The notes under the pieces were generated by a model. The model saw only the letters and a program-made list of their open reading frames with translations. It had not been told where the DNA came from and made no database searches. A stretch of 64,000 bases of DNA from Corynebacterium jeikeium. Its GTDB lineage: Bacteria > Actinomycetota > Actinomycetes > Mycobacteriales > Mycobacteriaceae. The stretch is taken from contig NZ_CP063195.1 of the NCBI RefSeq assembly GCF_028609885.1, positions 2,356,001-2,420,000 of the forward strand. The letters are read 5' to 3'. Positions 17,960 through 26,796 of this stretch are shown here, piece by piece. Position 1 is the stretch's first letter, and every line of letters starts with the position of its first letter. The position numbers were made by a program, and so were the translations under genes.

Positions 17960-18036
17960 CGGGATATGGCGCAGCTTGGTAGCGCACCTCGTTCGGGACG
18001 AGGGGGTCGCAGGTTCAAATCCTGTTATCCCGACCA
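17960..18036 (+). tRNA. tRNA-Pro (anticodon CGG)
   Basis: The cloverleaf can be drawn directly: acceptor CGGGATA pairs with TATCCCG, the anticodon stem CCTCG/CGAGG encloses loop TTCGGGA (anticodon CGG), the T arm contains GGTTCAAATCC, and the gene ends with an encoded CCA after discriminator A. It decodes CCG. An accessory iron-regulated gene cluster begins immediately downstream, a common arrangement at integration hot spots. Confidence 0.95.
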
Positions 18037-18141: not shown

Positions 18142-18160
18142 GTAGCCTAGCCTTACCTAA
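18142..18160. promoter_or_regulatory. DtxR-like iron box upstream of the metallophore biosynthesis unit
   Basis: GTAGCCTAGCCTTACCTAA matches the corynebacterial DtxR consensus (TTAGGTTAGSCTAACCTAA) at 15 of 19 positions, with an intact right half. It lies 120 bp upstream of the SbnB-like gene. DtxR with Fe2+ represses siderophore genes in corynebacteria, so iron-repressed expression is inferred. Confidence 0.78.
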
Positions 18161-18280
18161 CCTTTCCAAAGGTTTGTTTCCGCAAGGCTCACTACCGCTG
18201 TGGCCACCGGGATTGCATCGCAGGCAGCCCGGGACAATTAGAAACTTCCCCTCACAAGACAAGGCTCAACAAGCGCAACC

Positions 18281-19360
18281 ATGGAACACCTAGCCAATTC
18301 CGGCCCATCGCTACGTGTCCTCACTCGTAGTGATCTCGCAGATATAGAACTCCCTCCCGAACAAGTCATCCGAGCAGTCGAAGATGGCTACCTTGCACTG
18401 GAGTCCGGCGCCTCCCGCTGCCCTACAAAGATGATGATCGACCTCCCCGTAGAGAGTCGCGACTCAATCGCCTTTTCCATGCTCGGTTTCGACGCCGCGC
18501 GAGACCTCGTTGGTTACAAGACCTCATACCGCAAAGGCAGCGACAACCGCGACCAGTACTACACCACAATTACCCTGTACGACGACGAAACCGGTCTGCC
18601 TTACGCCCTCATGGACTGCCAGAAAATCGGCGCCTCCCGCACTCCGGCAACCACCGCGCTCATCGCCCGCGAATGCGCACGCTCCGGCGCCACCTCCGTA
18701 ACGATGCTCGGAACCGGGCTGCAGAGTATGAACACGCTGGCATATCTGCTCACCGTCCTGCCGAATCTCCAGCATCTCCGCTTACACGGCACCCATCCCG
18801 AGGGCGTCAAGGACACACTTGACGTTCTGCAACGCTGGTTCCCGGACCGCTCCGTCGAACTCATCGGAACTGCCAAATCACTGAATAACACGAGCTCAGA
18901 TAGCATTTCTCACGCAGTGACCTCAGCTCGCGAAATCATCGCCGCGGACACCGACGCCGTGCGCGATGCAGTCTCGACCAGCGACATCACCGTGGTGGCG
19001 TCAGGTCGTGCGTGGCACCCAAAGATTCATACCAGCTGGATTCCCGAGGGTGGACTGTTAATCTCCGTAGCCTCGAAGGGTGTAGCCGATGGCGCCGTCG
19101 CGGAAGCCGACCGTGTCATCGCAACCAGCAAAGGGCAGTTCGACCTCGTCGGTCAGAGGCTCCTCCAGGGGCGCAATGTGCAGCTCGACGCCACTCTCCC
19201 AGACATCCTCGCCAGCCAGGTTCCGGGTCGTATCAGCGACTCTGAACGCATCTTCGCTTTCTGCAGCGGAATGATCGTTACGGACATTCCCATCGCTCAC
19301 GAACTCGCCGTACGGGCGTTTTCCGCAGGAAGGGGAAGCGAGGTCACACTGTGGAGCTAG
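18281..19360 (+). CDS. SbnB-like dehydrogenase (ornithine cyclodeaminase/mu-crystallin family)
   Basis: The 359-aa protein has the family layout: N-terminal dimerisation part with KTSYRKGSDN, the conserved SRTPATTALIAREC, and the Rossmann motif MLGTGLQSMNTL near residue 143, then SDITVVASG and ISVASKG. In staphyloferrin B synthesis SbnB uses NAD+ to split N-(1-amino-1-carboxy-2-ethyl)-glutamate into 2-oxoglutarate and L-2,3-diaminopropionate. The adjacent SbnA-like gene supports the same reaction here. ATG at 18281. It overlaps the next gene by 10 nt. An ordinary ornithine cyclodeaminase is the alternative, but the neighbours argue against it. Confidence 0.82.
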   Translation: MEHLANSGPSLRVLTRSDLADIELPPEQVIRAVEDGYLALESGASRCPTKMMIDLPVESRDSIAFSMLGFDAARDLVGYKTSYRKGSDNRDQYYTTITLYDDETGLPYALMDCQKIGASRTPATTALIARECARSGATSVTMLGTGLQSMNTLAYLLTVLPNLQHLRLHGTHPEGVKDTLDVLQRWFPDRSVELIGTAKSLNNTSSDSISHAVTSAREIIAADTDAVRDAVSTSDITVVASGRAWHPKIHTSWIPEGGLLISVASKGVADGAVAEADRVIATSKGQFDLVGQRLLQGRNVQLDATLPDILASQVPGRISDSERIFAFCSGMIVTDIPIAHELAVRAFSAGRGSEVTLWS

Positions 19361-20769
19361 CGCCCAGCCTACCACCGCTCGTACAGGCGTGGGAGGAGGA
19401 ACTGTTCAACCACCCCTGGGCTCTGCCGCAGATGCGGGAGTTGGCGTCGGGTCCCTTCCATGTGCTGTATCCAGCGCAACTGCGCACCAATCTGAGGGAC
19501 TTTGCCACCACGGCACAGGATATGAACGTGGACTGCACTGTGTTCTTCGCACGCAAGGCGAACAAGGCCGAGTGTTGGCTGCAGGAAATCGCCGCTGCAG
19601 ATCAAGGCGTAGATGTAGCCAGCGGACCGGAGCTCGTCGGCGCTCTGGCCGGAGGAATTCGCGGGACAAAACTAGTGATCACCGGCGCGGAAAAAGCAGA
19701 CAATCTGCTGTGGCTGGGTATCCGTCACGGGTGCACAATCGCAGCGGATTCGCCCGGCGAACTGCAAAGAATACTAGACATCACCCGAAGGGAAACGTCT
19801 GCACACCACACCGACGGCCACACACGCGTGCTGCTGCGCATTCTGCCCGCCGAGCAGACTGAGAGCCGCTTCGGCTGTACACCTCAAGAGTGGTCAGCGT
19901 GCATTTCGGGTCTGCCTGAACTCGGGAAACACGTCGATATCGTCGGCTCCTGCTTTCATCTCAACGAATACAGCTCCGAGCAAAGGGGCAAAGAAGCGCA
20001 CCGCAGCCTGGACTTTATGCGTGAGCTGCGCCGCAAAGGGTGGCGAGCGGACACTCTGGACATCGGTGGGGGATTTTCAGTTCGCTACAGCGCCGACGCA
20101 GACTGGGAAGCATTCCAACCCACGTTGACGGACGCGAGCGCTTTCCACGCAGGCCACACTCCCAGCACCTCCTATCCCTATGGCGGGGAAAAGGCAACCG
20201 GACCGGAGATGTTGCGCGCCATTCTGAACACCCCTACCAAACAGGTCGACGGGCAGACCCTCGCAGAGCGATTGCGCACCGAGGGCGTAAAGCTGGCACT
20301 CGAACCTGGAAGAGCGCTCCTAGCTGGCTGCGGACTCACCGTGTTCCCGGTACAAGGAGTCAAAAGCGCAGAGACTGAACGCAAATCCCCAGATCTCAAT
20401 CCGCAAGAGAATTCGCACTACAGGTACCAGATACTCACCGCTGCAGGACTCAGCATGAGCCTGTCCGAGCAATGGAAATCCAGCGAATTCTTGCCCGATC
20501 CCACCCTTTGGCCACAGCGCGAAGGCACCCCTACGCGCGCGTGTGTCGGCGGATCAAGCTGCATGGAATACGACATGCTCACCTGGAGAACCATCTGCTT
20601 TCCCCGCGCACCCAAGCGTGGCGACCTGCTGATTTACCACAACACGGCTGGATACCAGATGGACAAGAACGAAAGCTCTTTCCACCAGCTACCGCTCCCC
20701 AGCCGCTTCGTCTGGGATAGCTCAGTCCCCACCATTCGTCATGATCACCCCCTGCATGTGGAACTCTGA
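19351..20769 (+). CDS. SbnH/Y4yA-like PLP-dependent decarboxylase (fold type III)
   Basis: The 472-aa enzyme is related to diaminopimelate/ornithine decarboxylases. Visible motifs: PLP Lys in VFFARKANKAE (about residue 67), GSCFHLNEYS, DIGGGFSVRYS near 230, the phosphate-binding LALEPGRALLAG near 315, active-site Cys in VGGSSCMEYDMLTWR and C-terminal NTAGYQMDKNESSFHQLPLP. The last two segments recall SbnH and Y4yA rather than LysA. In staphyloferrin B synthesis SbnH decarboxylates a citryl-diaminopropionate intermediate. The GTG start at 19351 lies within the preceding gene, indicating translational coupling. Confidence 0.8.
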   Translation: MELAPSLPPLVQAWEEELFNHPWALPQMRELASGPFHVLYPAQLRTNLRDFATTAQDMNVDCTVFFARKANKAECWLQEIAAADQGVDVASGPELVGALAGGIRGTKLVITGAEKADNLLWLGIRHGCTIAADSPGELQRILDITRRETSAHHTDGHTRVLLRILPAEQTESRFGCTPQEWSACISGLPELGKHVDIVGSCFHLNEYSSEQRGKEAHRSLDFMRELRRKGWRADTLDIGGGFSVRYSADADWEAFQPTLTDASAFHAGHTPSTSYPYGGEKATGPEMLRAILNTPTKQVDGQTLAERLRTEGVKLALEPGRALLAGCGLTVFPVQGVKSAETERKSPDLNPQENSHYRYQILTAAGLSMSLSEQWKSSEFLPDPTLWPQREGTPTRACVGGSSCMEYDMLTWRTICFPRAPKRGDLLIYHNTAGYQMDKNESSFHQLPLPSRFVWDSSVPTIRHDHPLHVEL

Positions 20770-21934
20770 AAGGCTATTGGCACGTTCCATGAAAATCTCA
20801 ACTCGCACTACCCACTCAGCGATGAGCGGCGCGGGCGGCGAGTCGGCGCACCCTGCCGTGTGCACGGTTGCCCCGCCGCGCGTCAGCACCAAAATCTGCG
20901 ACCTGATCGGCAACACACCCGCACTGGAGCTTTGCCGCACAGGCACCGGAAGCCGACTCATCCTCAAATTGGACTGCTTCAATCCCACCGGGAGCGTCAA
21001 AATCCGCATGGCGATGGAAATGGTGCAAGGCGCCGAGCGTGCCGGGCTCTTGCGCCCGGGTAGCCGGATCGTTGAACCCACCTCGGGAAACACAGGACTT
21101 GGCCTGGCTATCGCGGCCTCCCAGCGCGGGTACAGATTTACCGCAGTGGTGGATCATCATGCCGCCAAAGACAAACTCGATGCCATGCGTGCCCTCGGTG
21201 CCGAGCTGATTTTCGTCGGCTCACCGGACACGAGCAAGCCATCCACCGTAGCCCGGCGGAGCATGGCGAAGCACATCGTCGAATCCGACCCGAACGCCTG
21301 GTGGCCCGACCAACACAACAACCCGGACAACCCGGGCGGATATGCACAGCTCGCGCACGAGCTTTCCGCCCAATGTTCGGACGGCGTGGACGTGCTCGTC
21401 GCCGCCGTAGGCACGGGCGGCACCCTCTGCGGAACCACACGTGAACTTCGAAGGATGGGCCACGAGGCAAAAACGGTGGGCGTCGAGCCAGAAGGATCCA
21501 TCATTTTCGGAGGACCGGCTGGCTCCTACAAACAGTCCGGCGCGGGTGCTCCCGGCGGCTTCACTATCGGGCAGAACGTGGATTATGCCCTAATCGATCA
21601 GCAGATCAAGGTAGGCGACGTCAAGGCATTCGCCACCTCGCGCGTACTCGCCCGGCGACACGGACTAATGGTTGGAGGAACTGCCGGGGCAGCAGTCCAT
21701 GAGGGGCTGCAGACCTTGCAGACCTGCGCCGCGAACAGCACTGTTGTAGTGCTTGTTTGCGACGCTGGGGAGAAATACCTGGACACAGTGTTTAACGACG
21801 CATGGTTGGATAGCCACGGGCTGCGCTCCGAGATCGCAGAGCGGCACGTGGAGAACATGCTGCGCGCCTACCGCGATTCGCGTTCCTTGTGCGCCGGCTG
21901 CCAGGCGCCACGATGCAGCGCGGTGCGGAGATGA
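20741..21934 (+). CDS. SbnA-like PLP-dependent synthase (cysteine synthase family)
   Basis: The product has up to 397 aa. The catalytic domain starts near residue 50 (ICDLIGNTPALEL) and has PLP Lys in CFNPTGSVKIRMA, the substrate loop EPTSGNTGLGLA and the phosphate loop VAAVGTGGTLCG. The residue after the PLP Lys is Ile where cysteine synthases have Asp. SbnA condenses O-phosphoserine with glutamate to the precursor that SbnB cleaves to L-diaminopropionate; that role is inferred. The start is uncertain (ATGs at 20741, 20756, 20789 and 20821, none with a good ribosome site). The C-terminus is extended and Cys-rich (SLCAGCQAPRC). It ends at the MATE start by an ATGA overlap. Confidence 0.8.
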   Translation: MITPCMWNSERLLARSMKISTRTTHSAMSGAGGESAHPAVCTVAPPRVSTKICDLIGNTPALELCRTGTGSRLILKLDCFNPTGSVKIRMAMEMVQGAERAGLLRPGSRIVEPTSGNTGLGLAIAASQRGYRFTAVVDHHAAKDKLDAMRALGAELIFVGSPDTSKPSTVARRSMAKHIVESDPNAWWPDQHNNPDNPGGYAQLAHELSAQCSDGVDVLVAAVGTGGTLCGTTRELRRMGHEAKTVGVEPEGSIIFGGPAGSYKQSGAGAPGGFTIGQNVDYALIDQQIKVGDVKAFATSRVLARRHGLMVGGTAGAAVHEGLQTLQTCAANSTVVVLVCDAGEKYLDTVFNDAWLDSHGLRSEIAERHVENMLRAYRDSRSLCAGCQAPRCSAVRR

Positions 21935-23310
21935 GGGTGGCTGCGAGGTTGAACTCCATTCAGAAGTACCGCGAAGTCCTTGGAATTTCCCTTCCCATCG
22001 CCGGGGTGCAGCTCGCCGGGGTGGCGCTGACCACCACGGACGTCCTGATGCTGCAATCCGTGGGGGTGCTGGCGATCGCTGGCGGTGGCTTGGCCATGCA
22101 GCTATACAACCAGATCCGCACGATGTGCGTGGGCATGGTGACGGCCAGCTCAAATCTCGTGGCCGAGGCTGCGGCAGAGATGGAACGGGAAGAAGCCTCT
22201 AGTCAGCCCTCGGAGGAAGGCGCGGAGCGGATCCGGCGAGCCGTGCGATCCTCCTTCGCCGTGGGCACAGGCACTGCGGTCCTCGGCGCGCTACTGGTCA
22301 TCACCTTCGGCGCACTGGTTCTTGCTCTGCCTATCGACGAGCAGGTCGCCCATCTCACCTTCGCCATGACCCTCACATTGGCGCCGGGACTCATCCCCAT
22401 GTTGTGGCTCAACGTCTTGCGCCAGTTCGCGGTGGGCATGCGCAAGCCTGGCTCCCTGCTTGCCATCACGCTGGTATCAATCTTCGTCAACATCGCCCTG
22501 AACTGGTCGTTTATGGCTTGGGCAACGTCGGACACATGGAAGGTGGCGGGCATCGGGCTATCCACGACCACCGTCCAACTTTTCACGTTGCTAGCCTTCC
22601 GCGTGGTCGTGCTGCGTATACCCGAGCTGCAACCCTACTTTCAGGTTCTGCCCCGCGCCGGCGACGGGGAGACTATACGCCACCTCGTGCGCCTCGGAGT
22701 ACCAGTTAGCCTGACCTATGGCTCGGAGGCAGCGATTACGACAATCGCCGGGTTGGCGATGGGAACCCTCAGCCCACAGATGTTGGCAGCGCACAACGTT
22801 GTCAACCAGCTAGCGTACATCGTCTACCAGGTTTGCATCGGCTTCTCCCATGGCGGGTCGGTGCTCATCACGAGGGCACGAGCCGAAGGCGCCAACGCGG
22901 TGCGCGCGGTAACCCGGCGCGTGCTACTCGTCGTGGTCGTGTACCTGGGGATTATGGGCGCACTGTGGCTTCTGCTGGGTCGCTGGATACTGCGCCCGTT
23001 CCTGGGAAGTGCAGACGCCACCACCTTCCACATCGCCGTCCTGCTTCTGTGCCTCGCCGTGCTTCAGCAGTTCTCTAAGGGAATTCAGAACGTGACAGTG
23101 GGTTTGCTGAGGGGGCTCAAGGACACCACTTCCGGGCTGCGCTGCACTCTCATTGGATATTGGCTAGTCGGCGTACCCGGAATTCTGGTGATGGGCAAGC
23201 TCCTTAGGTGGGAGGGCTACGGCGTGTGGTGGGGACTGATCGCGGGCTTCGCAACCACTGCCGTGCTGCTATTGCGGACCTATTCTCGACGCCTCGCTTC
23301 AATTTCCTAA
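21931..23310 (+). CDS. MATE-family exporter, probable metallophore efflux pump
   Basis: The 459-aa polytopic membrane protein has about 12 hydrophobic helices in two halves and a hydrophilic acidic/Ser loop (EMEREEASSQPSEEGAERIRR). Sequences such as LGISLPIAGVQLAGVALTTTDVLML and the second-half LVRLGVPVSLTYGSEAAITTIAG are typical of MATE/NorM transporters. I selected ATG 21931, which overlaps the SbnA-like stop (ATGA). Placement as the last gene of the biosynthetic unit suggests it exports the product. Staphyloferrin B loci use an MFS pump (SbnD) instead. Confidence 0.85.
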   Translation: MRVAARLNSIQKYREVLGISLPIAGVQLAGVALTTTDVLMLQSVGVLAIAGGGLAMQLYNQIRTMCVGMVTASSNLVAEAAAEMEREEASSQPSEEGAERIRRAVRSSFAVGTGTAVLGALLVITFGALVLALPIDEQVAHLTFAMTLTLAPGLIPMLWLNVLRQFAVGMRKPGSLLAITLVSIFVNIALNWSFMAWATSDTWKVAGIGLSTTTVQLFTLLAFRVVVLRIPELQPYFQVLPRAGDGETIRHLVRLGVPVSLTYGSEAAITTIAGLAMGTLSPQMLAAHNVVNQLAYIVYQVCIGFSHGGSVLITRARAEGANAVRAVTRRVLLVVVVYLGIMGALWLLLGRWILRPFLGSADATTFHIAVLLLCLAVLQQFSKGIQNVTVGLLRGLKDTTSGLRCTLIGYWLVGVPGILVMGKLLRWEGYGVWWGLIAGFATTAVLLLRTYSRRLASIS

Positions 23311-23353
23311 TGGGGCGTAAGACGGCTTTTACCTCCAAGCATTGCCTTTGATC

Positions 23354-23372
23354 GAAGGTGTGGCTAACCTAA
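23354..23372. promoter_or_regulatory. DtxR-like iron box upstream of the ABC importer unit
   Basis: GAAGGTGTGGCTAACCTAA matches the DtxR consensus at 15 of 19 positions with a perfect right arm (GGCTAACCTAA). It is 29 bp before the lipoprotein start, a position suited to repression. Confidence 0.78.
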
Positions 23373-23400
23373 GTAAGCCAACCCAAAGAAAGGAACACAG

Positions 23401-24618
23401 TTGTCCCTCACGACACTTAGGGCTCGCAGCCCCCGAACCCCCATGCGCCCTCATCTTCGCATGGCTCGCGCAGTTGTCTCGGCCGTCGCCGCCGCCAGCC
23501 TCTTCATGACCGCCGCCTGCAGCGCCAGCGACGAACCACACTCCACAATCAGCGGAGAAAAACAGCAGATCACCGACATCCTCGGACGCAATGTTGAGGT
23601 TCCGAAGAAGGTCGAGCGGATCCTCATGGGCGGGCAGAGAATGCTCTACACCACCGCTATCCTCAACAAGGAAAACCCGCTCCAGGGGATCGTCGCCTGG
23701 CCCGATGACCTGCAGCAGAACGATCCCGGCACGTACAAAAAGTACCAACAGAAATTCTCGAAGATCGGGGATATCAAGCAGACCGGCGAGGTTTACGACG
23801 GTTCGATGTCCCTCGAGCAGGCCCTGGAGTCCCGCCCAGATGTCTTCATTGTCTCTGCGAACAGTTTCGAGGCAGCCCAAGACGCTGGCATCATCGACGG
23901 CCTTGAAAAGGCTGGAATCCCCACCGTCACCGTCGACTACTTCACCGACCCGGTGAAAAACACCGTGCCGAGCGTGCGCTTGCTCGGCAAAGTGCTCGGG
24001 TACGAAAAGGAGGCGGAGAAGTACGCCCGGTTCTACGAATCCAAGGTGGACATGGTTCACGACCGGTTGGAAAAAGCCAAAGCCACTCCCACCCCAACCT
24101 TCCTCTGGCGAGCTCCCGGCTACTTCGACTGCTGCTCCACTTTCGCCAAGTCCAACCTGGCTCAATTAGTCACCGCAGCGGGTGGCAAGAACCTGGGAGA
24201 CGACATGATTGAAGGTAAGCAAGGCCAGGTCTCCCCCGAAGCGCTGGCTGGAAAAGACCCGGACGTCATCATCGCCACCGGCGCTGACTGGACTGATGCC
24301 AAGCAGCAGCCAAAAAAGACTGGCTTTATCCCCCTCGGTTACGACGAGTCCGCCGATCAGGCAGCCCGGGATTTTCAGCGCGTCGTTAACGGGCAACCTG
24401 TCCTCAAGGAAATGCGAGCCGTCAAGGACAAGAGAGCCTACGCCGCGTGGCATCACTTCTACGACTCTCCGTACAACTACCTGGCCATCGAGTGGTTCGC
24501 CAAGGCCATGCACCCCGACCTGTTTGCCGACATTGACCCGCAGGCTGACATGAAGGAACTGCACGAAAAATTCCTCCCCGTGGAGGCGAGCGGCACCTTC
24601 TGGACTGGTTTGCCATGA
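23401..24618 (+). CDS. metallophore/haem-type ABC substrate-binding lipoprotein
   Basis: The 405-aa lipoprotein has an Arg-rich N-terminus, a hydrophobic segment (VVSAVAAASLFM) and a lipobox ending TAAC (Cys about residue 40). The mature part is a periplasmic-binding-protein-2 (FecB/BtuF) domain beginning ITDILGRNVEVPKKVERI. A Cys-Cys pair (YFDCCSTF) is notable. The TTG start at 23401 has AAAGGA 7 nt upstream. It likely captures the secreted metallophore complex, given the DtxR box and neighbours, but haem or a xenosiderophore is possible. Confidence 0.88.
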   Translation: MSLTTLRARSPRTPMRPHLRMARAVVSAVAAASLFMTAACSASDEPHSTISGEKQQITDILGRNVEVPKKVERILMGGQRMLYTTAILNKENPLQGIVAWPDDLQQNDPGTYKKYQQKFSKIGDIKQTGEVYDGSMSLEQALESRPDVFIVSANSFEAAQDAGIIDGLEKAGIPTVTVDYFTDPVKNTVPSVRLLGKVLGYEKEAEKYARFYESKVDMVHDRLEKAKATPTPTFLWRAPGYFDCCSTFAKSNLAQLVTAAGGKNLGDDMIEGKQGQVSPEALAGKDPDVIIATGADWTDAKQQPKKTGFIPLGYDESADQAARDFQRVVNGQPVLKEMRAVKDKRAYAAWHHFYDSPYNYLAIEWFAKAMHPDLFADIDPQADMKELHEKFLPVEASGTFWTGLP

Positions 24619-25742
24619 GCCACGTCGCCCCGACACGGTCAACCCCTGCCGTAAACGGGAAGGATCACAAAGACAGCATCCCGCAACGTCAACGCCCCGG
24701 CGTGAGCTGGTACCGAGCAGCCAGCAGGCGCAAGGTGGCAATCATCGCCGGGCTCGCGGCTCTGCTATGTGCAGTCACCGCCACAGATTTCCTCATCGGC
24801 AGCAGCATGCCTGCTAATGAGGCGATATATGTGCTATTTCACCCCAGCGATTCCCGCCCTGTTGACCGACAGATCATCTTTGATATTCGCCTGCCAATGA
24901 CCATCACGGCGGTCCTCATCGGCGCTGCCCTCGCTGCCGCTGGCGCAGAGATGCAAACCATCCTGGGCAACCCCCTCGCAGAGCCCTATACACTGGGTAT
25001 TTCCGCTGCCTCCAGCTTCGGCGCCGCCTTCGCCACCGTCTCCGGATTCACCGCGGCAGGAATTGGAGCAACGCTGGGGATGGCCGGCAGCGCGTGGGTG
25101 TTCGGCATCGCAGCCTGCGCGGTGATCGTCCTCTTCTCCCGGTCAAAGAGCGCCGGCACGGAGGGAATGATCTTGCTAGGCATTGCAATCGTGTTCCTTT
25201 TCGACGCTCTCCTGGCACTGATGCAATACCTCGCCTCGCAGACCCAGCTAGAGCAGGTGGTCTTCTGGACGATGGGCAGTCTCACGCGCGCCAAGTGGCC
25301 CCAGATCTGCCTCCTGGCACTCGTCTCGCTGATCGTCATCGCATTCTTCTACCGCAACGCGTGGACACTGACGGCGTTTCGAATGGGAGACGACCGCGCC
25401 AGGTCCATGGGAATCAACGTCAACAGGCTGCGCACGCTCACACTGGTGGGCGTCTCCCTCATGGCTGCGACTGCCGTTTCGATGGCCGGGACGATTGGCT
25501 TTATCGGCCTCGTCGGCCCACACATCGCCAGGATGCTCGTCGGCGAGGATCAGCGATTTTTCCTCACTACATCCATCTTCTCCGGTGCGCTCTTGCTTAC
25601 CTCAGCCTCCGTGGTCTCCAAGCTGATCCAGCCCGGCGCGATCCTGCCCGTCGGCATCATCACGGCGATTGTGGGCGTGCCAGCGTTCGTCGTCCTCATC
25701 GTTCTGCGCCGCCGGCCCCGAACCGTCTCCTCGCCCACCTAA
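24615..25742 (+). CDS. FecCD-family ABC permease
   Basis: This 375-aa membrane protein has a basic hydrophilic N-terminus (about 45 residues) and then 8-10 helices of the BtuC/FecCD type (RLPMTITAVLIGAALAAAGAEMQTILGNPLAEPYTLGIS; GFIGLVGPHIARMLVG). It is the only permease gene in the unit, so a homodimeric channel is likely. The ATG overlaps the lipoprotein stop (ATGA). Confidence 0.92.
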   Translation: MSHVAPTRSTPAVNGKDHKDSIPQRQRPGVSWYRAASRRKVAIIAGLAALLCAVTATDFLIGSSMPANEAIYVLFHPSDSRPVDRQIIFDIRLPMTITAVLIGAALAAAGAEMQTILGNPLAEPYTLGISAASSFGAAFATVSGFTAAGIGATLGMAGSAWVFGIAACAVIVLFSRSKSAGTEGMILLGIAIVFLFDALLALMQYLASQTQLEQVVFWTMGSLTRAKWPQICLLALVSLIVIAFFYRNAWTLTAFRMGDDRARSMGINVNRLRTLTLVGVSLMAATAVSMAGTIGFIGLVGPHIARMLVGEDQRFFLTTSIFSGALLLTSASVVSKLIQPGAILPVGIITAIVGVPAFVVLIVLRRRPRTVSSPT

Positions 25743-25808
25743 AACTCCGTCGCCGCGCCCACTTCTTCTCGCTCCAGACCCCTCCCTCACCCCAGAAAGG
25801 ACAACCTC

Positions 25809-26579
25809 GTGGAACAGCCCACCACGGTTCCGTCAGCCCCCGCACTGCAGGTCACCGACCTGAGCTTTTCCCACGGAGCAGCGCAGATCCTGAATGGCGT
25901 TTCTCTTCCGGGGATCGACGCCGGGACCGTCACCGCCCTTGTAGGCCCCAATGGAGCTGGTAAATCCACCCTGCTGCGCTGCATGGCTCAGCTGTGCCGA
26001 TTCAGCGGCAGTGTCACCGGACCCGACGCGGTGTATTTGCCACAGGATCCCCCGCCGGAAAGCACCCTTACAGTGTTTGAATCGGTGCTACTGGCGCTCC
26101 AGCACTCACGCACGGGATTCAGTGGGCTGCGCGTGGCCACATCCACCCAGGATAGAGTCAGCGCGGTACTCACACGACTGGGTCTGAAAGAATTCGAGTC
26201 TCGCACGATGTCCCAGCTCTCCGGCGGCCAGCGCCAGCTGGTGAGCTTCGCTCAGGCGATCGTACGCCGCCCCCGGGCTCTTCTGTTGGACGAGCCAACC
26301 AGTGCTCTCGACCTGCGCAATCAGCTGACCCTCATGGAGCACATTTGCACCTACGCCGTTGAAGCACCCGCGGCAGTGGTGGTCACGATGCACGATCTCT
26401 CGCACGCGGCACGCTTCGCCGATCGCATCGCAGTGCTTCACAACGGCGCCGTTTACGCGCATGGAGCCGTGGAGGATGTGCTCACCGAAGAAATGTTGCG
26501 CGAGGTCTACCGAGTCGATGGAACGATTACGCCCACCGGTGATGGAAATGTAGCGATCACCACGTCAAGGGCAATATGA
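25809..26579 (+). CDS. FecE-like ABC transporter ATPase
   Basis: The 256-aa ATPase has Walker A GPNGAGKSTLL near residue 42, signature LSGGQRQLVSFAQAI, Walker B ALLLDEPTSALD and the switch His in VVTMHDLSHAARF. The GTG start at 25809 has AAAGGA upstream. It completes the binding protein-permease-ATPase unit. After its stop there are 217 bp without a gene before the Mrp operon. Confidence 0.92.
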   Translation: MEQPTTVPSAPALQVTDLSFSHGAAQILNGVSLPGIDAGTVTALVGPNGAGKSTLLRCMAQLCRFSGSVTGPDAVYLPQDPPPESTLTVFESVLLALQHSRTGFSGLRVATSTQDRVSAVLTRLGLKEFESRTMSQLSGGQRQLVSFAQAIVRRPRALLLDEPTSALDLRNQLTLMEHICTYAVEAPAAVVVTMHDLSHAARFADRIAVLHNGAVYAHGAVEDVLTEEMLREVYRVDGTITPTGDGNVAITTSRAI

Positions 26580-26796
26580 GGGTCTGCTAAACTTTGGCGA
26601 GTCGCATAAAATATTTCCGTTCATGTTCCGACGTGACGGACCGCCCAATTTTTTCTAGCCCTCCGAGGTCACCCTCCCGCGCATCTTGGAGACACTAGGA
26701 GCGATCGATCGGCTCCGCAGTTCGGGACGTTGAAGGCGATTGTGCGTTTGCCTAAGATATCGTCGTCGAACTCATTGGTTAGGGTGTTTTAGACAC

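Follow-up and report, generated by a model that had tools for sequence, protein, structure and literature searches.

A putative aminopolycarboxylate siderophore locus with DtxR-type boxes in Corynebacterium jeikeium

The locus and its predicted iron boxes

Positions 18142 to 26579 of a 64,000-nucleotide stretch of the Corynebacterium jeikeium genome (contig NZ_CP063195.1, 2356001-2420000; the whole of this stretch is called the window) hold a locus that probably encodes a self-contained system for making, exporting and re-importing an iron chelator of the type of ethylenediaminedisuccinic acid (EDDS), judging from gene content, predicted operators and related loci. Its seven genes, all on the + strand, form two units, a biosynthesis and export core (18281-23310) and an importer (23401-26579), as listed in Table 1. 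An earlier sequence-only reading had described these seven genes in two same-strand units, each with an iron box, and had pointed to a MATE pump and a single permease as unlike staphyloferrin B (sbn) loci. Pfam bore out the families, the pump and the single permease gene at the coordinates given there, and a DtxR-type site was found upstream of each unit, beyond chance.

The boxes were scored against TWAGGTWAGSCTWACCTWA, which we take to be the DtxR consensus. Two sites were found in the window, as compared to 0.01 expected per window, and none of 100 shuffles contained two. Across the 2.52-Mb genome there were 10 DtxR-type sites versus 1 for the reversed control; the strict palindromic form of the consensus at 3 mismatches gave one site alone and the degenerate form gave the ten. 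Some of the other sites lie beside genes for HtaA, a siderophore-interacting protein and a cluster of nonribosomal peptide synthetase (NRPS) and ABC exporter genes, as an iron regulon would predict, and one of the ten adjoins a sugar-nucleotide dehydratase/epimerase gene. The two window sites are operator-like and precede both units, which makes these units candidate members of a DtxR regulon. Zur control in the window was rejected: the nearest Zur-like site (at most 3 mismatches, 9001-34000 scanned) lies ~6.8 kb upstream; unlike EDDS proper, which is under Zur control, the locus has two predicted DtxR-type boxes.

Table 1. Features of the locus, in positions of the window. PLP, pyridoxal phosphate; DAP, diaminopimelate.
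Feature	Position	Strand	Basis
tRNA-Pro(CGG), left edge of insertion site	17960..18036	+	ARAGORN
Predicted DtxR-type box upstream of biosynthetic operon	18142..18160	+	3 mismatches to TWAGGTWAGSCTWACCTWA
SbnB-like OCD/mu-crystallin family dehydrogenase	18281..19360	+	PF02423
SbnH/DAP-decarboxylase-like (Orn/DAP-decarboxylase) PLP enzyme	19351..20769	+	PF02784
SbnA/cysteine-synthase-like PLP enzyme (PALP family)	20741..21934	+	PF00291
MATE efflux pump (MatE)	21889..23310	+	PF01554
Second predicted DtxR-type box, upstream of importer operon	23354..23372	+	3 mismatches
YiuA-like (FecB-like) substrate-binding lipoprotein, Peripla_BP_2	23401..24618	+	Pfam
FecCD-type permease, single gene	24615..25742	+	PF01032, 261.6 bits
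FecE-type ATPase (ABC ATPase)	25809..26579	+	PF00005

The true start of the SbnA-like gene is probably downstream of 20741. On its left the locus is bordered by tRNA-Pro(CGG), on its right by an mrpA-like antiporter gene at 26740. The pair of phosphoesterase and tRNA-Pro genes is conserved, with tRNA-Pro present in 23 of 25 loci (own included), and in three relatives (L147, L148, L150) the match to the mrpA-like gene starts ~180-440 bp beyond tRNA-Pro. Because both genes lie close together in these three, the locus was gained or lost at this site; flanks were compared over 1.5 kb at the longest, a length at which the remaining relatives say nothing about the spacing. The GC content of the locus was 60.7%, and the mean of equal-size windows was 63.0%.

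Recurrence of the core, its boxes and its importers

The genus was searched with an SbnB profile (242 genomes, counting this one; match threshold 1e-40). Ten genomes gave matches, nine long and one a fragment. All seven genes were present in six genomes, own included, four with the core before the importer (window, L047, L050, L051) and two with the importer before the core (L048, L049). The broken matches in the tenth genome (G148:C8:305504-307556), a partial SbnB-like frame and an interrupted SbnH-like frame of an apparently decayed core copy, were left out of the carrier count. A second type, found in three genus genomes (L052-L054), has a TauD-family hydroxylase, a more distant core (SbnB 31-33%) and a different Opp-type importer.

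The named-genome scan confirmed 199 relatives of the SbnB-like protein, and the best 80 were analysed. The order SbnB-SbnH-SbnA-MATE was complete in 78 of these best 80; L102 is ordered differently and L131 is cut by a contig end. The core was seen in actinobacteria and proteobacteria (Nocardia, Amycolatopsis, Sciscionella, Kribbella, Gordonia, Tsukamurella, Rhizobium, Methylobacterium and Erwinia). It was present in Amycolatopsis keratiniphila (L090), the sole other species of the NCBI A. japonica species group, where a Zur-like site with 2 mismatches lies ~60 bp upstream. A midpoint-rooted FastTree tree of 86 concatenated cores placed the window in the Corynebacterium Fec clade, on the hydroxylase-free side, and Fec-type loci with DtxR-like boxes appeared in several separate places (Corynebacterium; Nocardia and Arthrobacter; Sciscionella; Tsukamurella).

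Boxes were classed in 88 loci (79 named, 8 further ones of this genus and the window), scanning ~520 bp of sequence ahead of each core together with the regions upstream of co-directional importers. The count left out L055 (a different locus) and L056 (a duplicate of L048), and took both L071 and L072, which come from separate scaffolds of the same species and share their arrangement. Hydroxylase-type loci (n = 33) had DtxR-like boxes in 28 cases, a Zur-like box only in 1 and none in 4. Hydroxylase-free loci with FecB/FecCD/FecE (n = 15) had DtxR-like boxes in 11 cases (one also Zur-like), a Zur-like box only in 1 (G194, with the site upstream of its Opp operon) and none in 3. For the remaining hydroxylase-free loci (n = 40, among them proteobacteria, to which the two patterns do not necessarily apply) the counts were 0 DtxR-like, 15 Zur-like and 25 with none. 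DtxR-like boxes went with the hydroxylase type or the Fec importer, and Zur-like boxes mostly with an Opp-type importer or none. The Fisher test compared the DtxR-like loci, 11/15 versus 0/40, ignoring shared ancestry. Twenty-seven of 30 permuted DtxR patterns matched no locus and three matched one; among 30 draws of the Zur pattern, 29 permuted ones matched 0-2 loci and one redrew the unpermuted pattern (18 loci). A box equivalent to the first window box was found in L047, L050 and L051 with 4, 3 and 4 mismatches, respectively.

In Tsukamurella sp. 1534 (L095) the core groups with Zur-boxed cores and is accompanied by a Fec importer. Both a Zur-like and a DtxR-like site lie upstream, the DtxR-like one at the gene start; an importer swap is possible there. 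Seven proteobacterial loci (L064, L068, L070, L076, L078, L080, L096) have the core and FecCD-type genes, and the actinobacterial DtxR- and Zur-like patterns were not found in their scanned upstream regions.

Among solved structures, those nearest to the binding protein (23401-24618) include YiuA, with 37-38% identity (Yersinia ruckeri 9hrj, 9hrp, 9if3 and 9ht5; Y. pestis 6b2x and 6b2y), whose fold it shares. YiuA was solved with Fe and with Fe-nitrilotriacetate (Fe-NTA); it differs in being a Gram-negative periplasmic protein.

No IucA/IucC domain of an NRPS-independent siderophore (NIS) synthetase was found in the genome (E ≤ 0.001, also the threshold in the other carriers). Condensation domains were confined to a sole region, 2155865-2162953, outside the window, so the statement of the sequence-only reading that 64 kb hold neither an NIS synthetase nor an NRPS agrees with the genome-wide searches. 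The NRPS is a single frame of 3629 aa surrounded by DtxR-type sites, and its cluster also has an ornithine/lysine monooxygenase, ABC exporters, a binding protein, FecCD and FecE of its own. In the region 2148001-2176000 (L045, L046) a mutator-type transposase gene adjoins this iron-boxed cluster. IucA/IucC domains occurred in one of the six seven-gene carriers (G142) and condensation domains in three (own genome, G125, G202). The remaining two (G082, G194), draft assemblies whose listed completeness is 100%, had neither, which answers the question raised by that reading of whether the seven genes recur without such enzymes.

Enzymes, proposed chemistry and known clusters

The labels SbnA and SbnB are loose for the window proteins, judging from their scores: 244.4 bits on TIGR03945 (NCBIfam SbnA, cut-off 349.95) and 78.6 bits on TIGR03944 (NCBIfam SbnB, cut-off 326.9). 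An AlphaFold model of the SbnB-like protein (predicted local distance difference test score, pLDDT, 89.6) gave tied nearest folds, namely pyrroline-2-carboxylate reductase, SbnB, alanine dehydrogenase and iminosuccinate reductase. The SbnH-like profile matched DAP decarboxylases and, with a lower score, SbnH (6knh), and the stretches GGG, EPGR, SLSEQW and YQMDxNES were kept across 9 homologues. The SbnA-like protein was likewise aligned with homologues (n = 9). In Staphylococcus aureus, SbnA converts phosphoserine and glutamate to N-(1-amino-1-carboxyl-2-ethyl)-glutamic acid (ACEGA), according to PMC12414870.

From these families we infer a route of β-substitution, decarboxylation and reductive coupling with a keto acid, whose step order and exact substrates are left free. 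The SbnA-like enzyme would turn phospho- or acetylserine into aminoacrylate, to which aspartate (or glutamate) would add through its amino group. Removal of the seryl carboxylate by the SbnH-like enzyme would give an N-(2-aminoethyl)-amino acid and create the ethylenediamine bridge. The SbnB-like enzyme would then join the free amine to oxaloacetate (or 2-oxoglutarate) as an imine and reduce it with NAD(P)H to EDDS or a close analogue. Because of this chemistry, three enzymes would suffice and a ligase would not be needed. The MATE pump would export the chelator, the YiuA-like lipoprotein and FecCD/FecE would re-import the ferric chelate, and DtxR would repress both units at sufficient iron. 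The product is very probably some ethylenediamine-bridged aminopolycarboxylate; that it is EDDS exactly we would put at somewhat below an even chance. The sequence-only reading had framed the pathway around L-2,3-diaminopropionate (Dap); its SbnA-, SbnB- and SbnH-like families stand, and the Dap detail is probably wrong, since free Dap is not a required intermediate and the SbnA and SbnB cut-offs were missed.

Distant homologues of SbnA, SbnB and SbnH and a link to iron are common to this locus and the sbn operon. Staphyloferrin B was nevertheless rejected as the product, given the missed cut-offs and the lack of an NIS synthetase in the genome; the MATE pump and single FecCD permease also differ. 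A closer match is the [S,S]-EDDS (aes) cluster of A. japonica, described as the EDDS producer in PMC9252823, which gives EDDS as Zur-controlled (under the name A. japonicum). That cluster apparently has the same SbnB-SbnH-SbnA-MATE core, as judged from A. keratiniphila. Neither the A. keratiniphila locus nor the window locus has a hydroxylase. The EDDS type differs in its zinc/Zur control, and the 19 kb of the A. keratiniphila locus showed no Fec-type importer, whereas the window has predicted DtxR-type boxes and an adjacent FecB/FecCD/FecE. The structure of EDDS points to a biosynthesis unlike NRPS and NIS routes, as stated in PMC4993170; because of this report, no assembly enzyme need be missing. 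All four aes-type families (OCD dehydrogenase, PLP decarboxylase, cysteine-synthase-like enzyme and MATE pump) are present in the window, and the two carriers without NIS or NRPS domains indicate that no dedicated enzyme of either kind is needed.

The class is known, and the new part is a variant with iron boxes and a Fec importer and without a hydroxylase. The novelty claimed for the locus by the sequence-only reading is lowered accordingly: antiSMASH 7 includes this cluster class (PMC10320115), an EDDS-like cluster of the same genus and antiSMASH class, called zinc-dependent there by similarity, appears in the C. striatum pangenome (PMC10486106), and Nocardia mangyaensis has an iron-boxed aminopolycarboxylate cluster with a MATE gene (PMC10920908). 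Neither the combination of DtxR boxes, Fec importer and no hydroxylase nor dual-importer loci were found described as such in the open-access papers searched.

Alternative products and metals

Two proposals place part of the pathway elsewhere in the genome. In the second alternative of the sequence-only reading, building blocks go to an assembly enzyme encoded elsewhere; the three enzymes would then produce Dap or one of its derivatives, with the iron-boxed 3629-aa NRPS as candidate recipient. We consider this highly improbable, since the NRPS cluster brings its own monooxygenase, exporters and import genes, the locus carries its own exporter and importer, and three of the six carriers have the seven genes with no detected condensation domain. 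A split pathway was rejected in both forms, as neither enzyme type co-occurs consistently (NRPS in 3/6 carriers, NIS in 1/6 and not in this genome). If anything still less probable is ethylenediaminesuccinic acid hydroxyarginine (EDHA), with its hydroxylase encoded elsewhere. According to PMC10702961, the EDHA operon consists of four iron-responsive genes, AesA-D; species for which it is cited there include C. pseudotuberculosis, C. ulcerans and Nocardia brasiliensis. The Streptomyces EDHA cluster has the four-gene core and iron response in common with the locus (predicted boxes here), and the hydroxylase type occurs in three other genomes of the genus. However, the loci taken as EDHA type carry a TauD-family hydroxylase, and any importer seen in them is of the Opp type; the need for the hydroxylase can be read from the name and these loci. 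The window locus lacks this gene, no homologue was found in any of the six Fec-type carrier genomes at E ≤ 0.001 (the query's source genome, searched alongside, matched itself), and the core tree places the carriers with hydroxylase-free clusters. EDHA was therefore rejected as the product.

A stronger contender, although still unlikely, is that the EDDS-like chelator serves zinc or several metals, iron being one of them. EDDS binds many metals, and several loci of Amycolatopsis and Nocardia have Zur-like sites on the same core. In four of the five other carriers (G194, G082, G125 and G202; loci L047-L050), the core is flanked by an Opp-type importer as well. The OppA of this importer shares 46-52% identity with the OppA proteins of nine Zur-boxed loci; across the full set of twelve hydroxylase-free loci compared, the range is 46-63%, with the top values coming from an unboxed Rhizobiales locus. 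This Opp importer may carry the zinc chelate, and Fec and Opp importers around one core suggest two-metal use of one chelator. The window itself has two DtxR-type boxes, no Zur-like site near the operon and, like G142, no adjoining Opp importer. An Opp importer acting in trans was rejected, the best OppA elsewhere (at 218 kb of the genome) being just 41% identical, with no Zur-like site within 30 kb.

The preferred reading is the EDDS-type iron siderophore, whose assignment to iron follows from the repressor boxes and the importer type. Several points weigh against it. Both window boxes are 3 mismatches off the assumed consensus; L048 and L049 have no DtxR-type box at up to 4 mismatches (one at 5, matching one half); and the second box is not kept, the best sites upstream of FecB in L047, L050 and L051 having 6-8 mismatches. 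YiuA was also solved with the catecholate fragment DHB-L-Arg-L-Ser (DHB, dihydroxybenzoyl; 9if3), so its family is not specific to aminopolycarboxylates, and all 12 of the 12 homologues compared here have Phe where the published YiuA triad has its second Arg. Identity to the A. keratiniphila set, which stands for the EDDS producer since A. japonica itself was outside the compared loci, is just 45-55% for the enzymes and pump, and the enzymes could use other amino or keto acids. Equating the four core families with AesA-D is our reading of citing papers together with synteny. What was observed is the gene content, the box-like sites, the recurring cassette, the want of consistent NIS/NRPS partners, the missing hydroxylase and the fold relatives; product, metal and in vivo regulation are deduced. 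The first alternative of the sequence-only reading, a simple chelator made by the three enzymes, is nevertheless supported: the four core genes recur as a cassette consistent with EDDS/EDHA clusters, and in two genomes without a detectable NIS or NRPS condensation domain the same importer lies beside them.

A more tentative extension, which we hold to be possible and somewhat doubtful, is that one promiscuous pathway serves iron or zinc through a joint swap of repressor box and importer, the enzymes being unchanged. Some corynebacteria with both importers, the Opp one resembling that of Zur-boxed cores and the Fec one being the type seen with DtxR-boxed cores, would then harvest two metals with one molecule, and the window would be the iron-only version.

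For annotators, there would be no missing NIS or NRPS enzyme to seek in such loci. If the EDDS-type reading is true, a ligase-free three-enzyme route to an EDTA-like (ethylenediaminetetraacetic acid-like) chelator serves as an iron siderophore system. Metal identity would then be set by regulation and import and not by the chelator itself, and the metal choice of a broad-range chelator would become testable by comparing related DtxR/Fec and Zur/Opp clusters.

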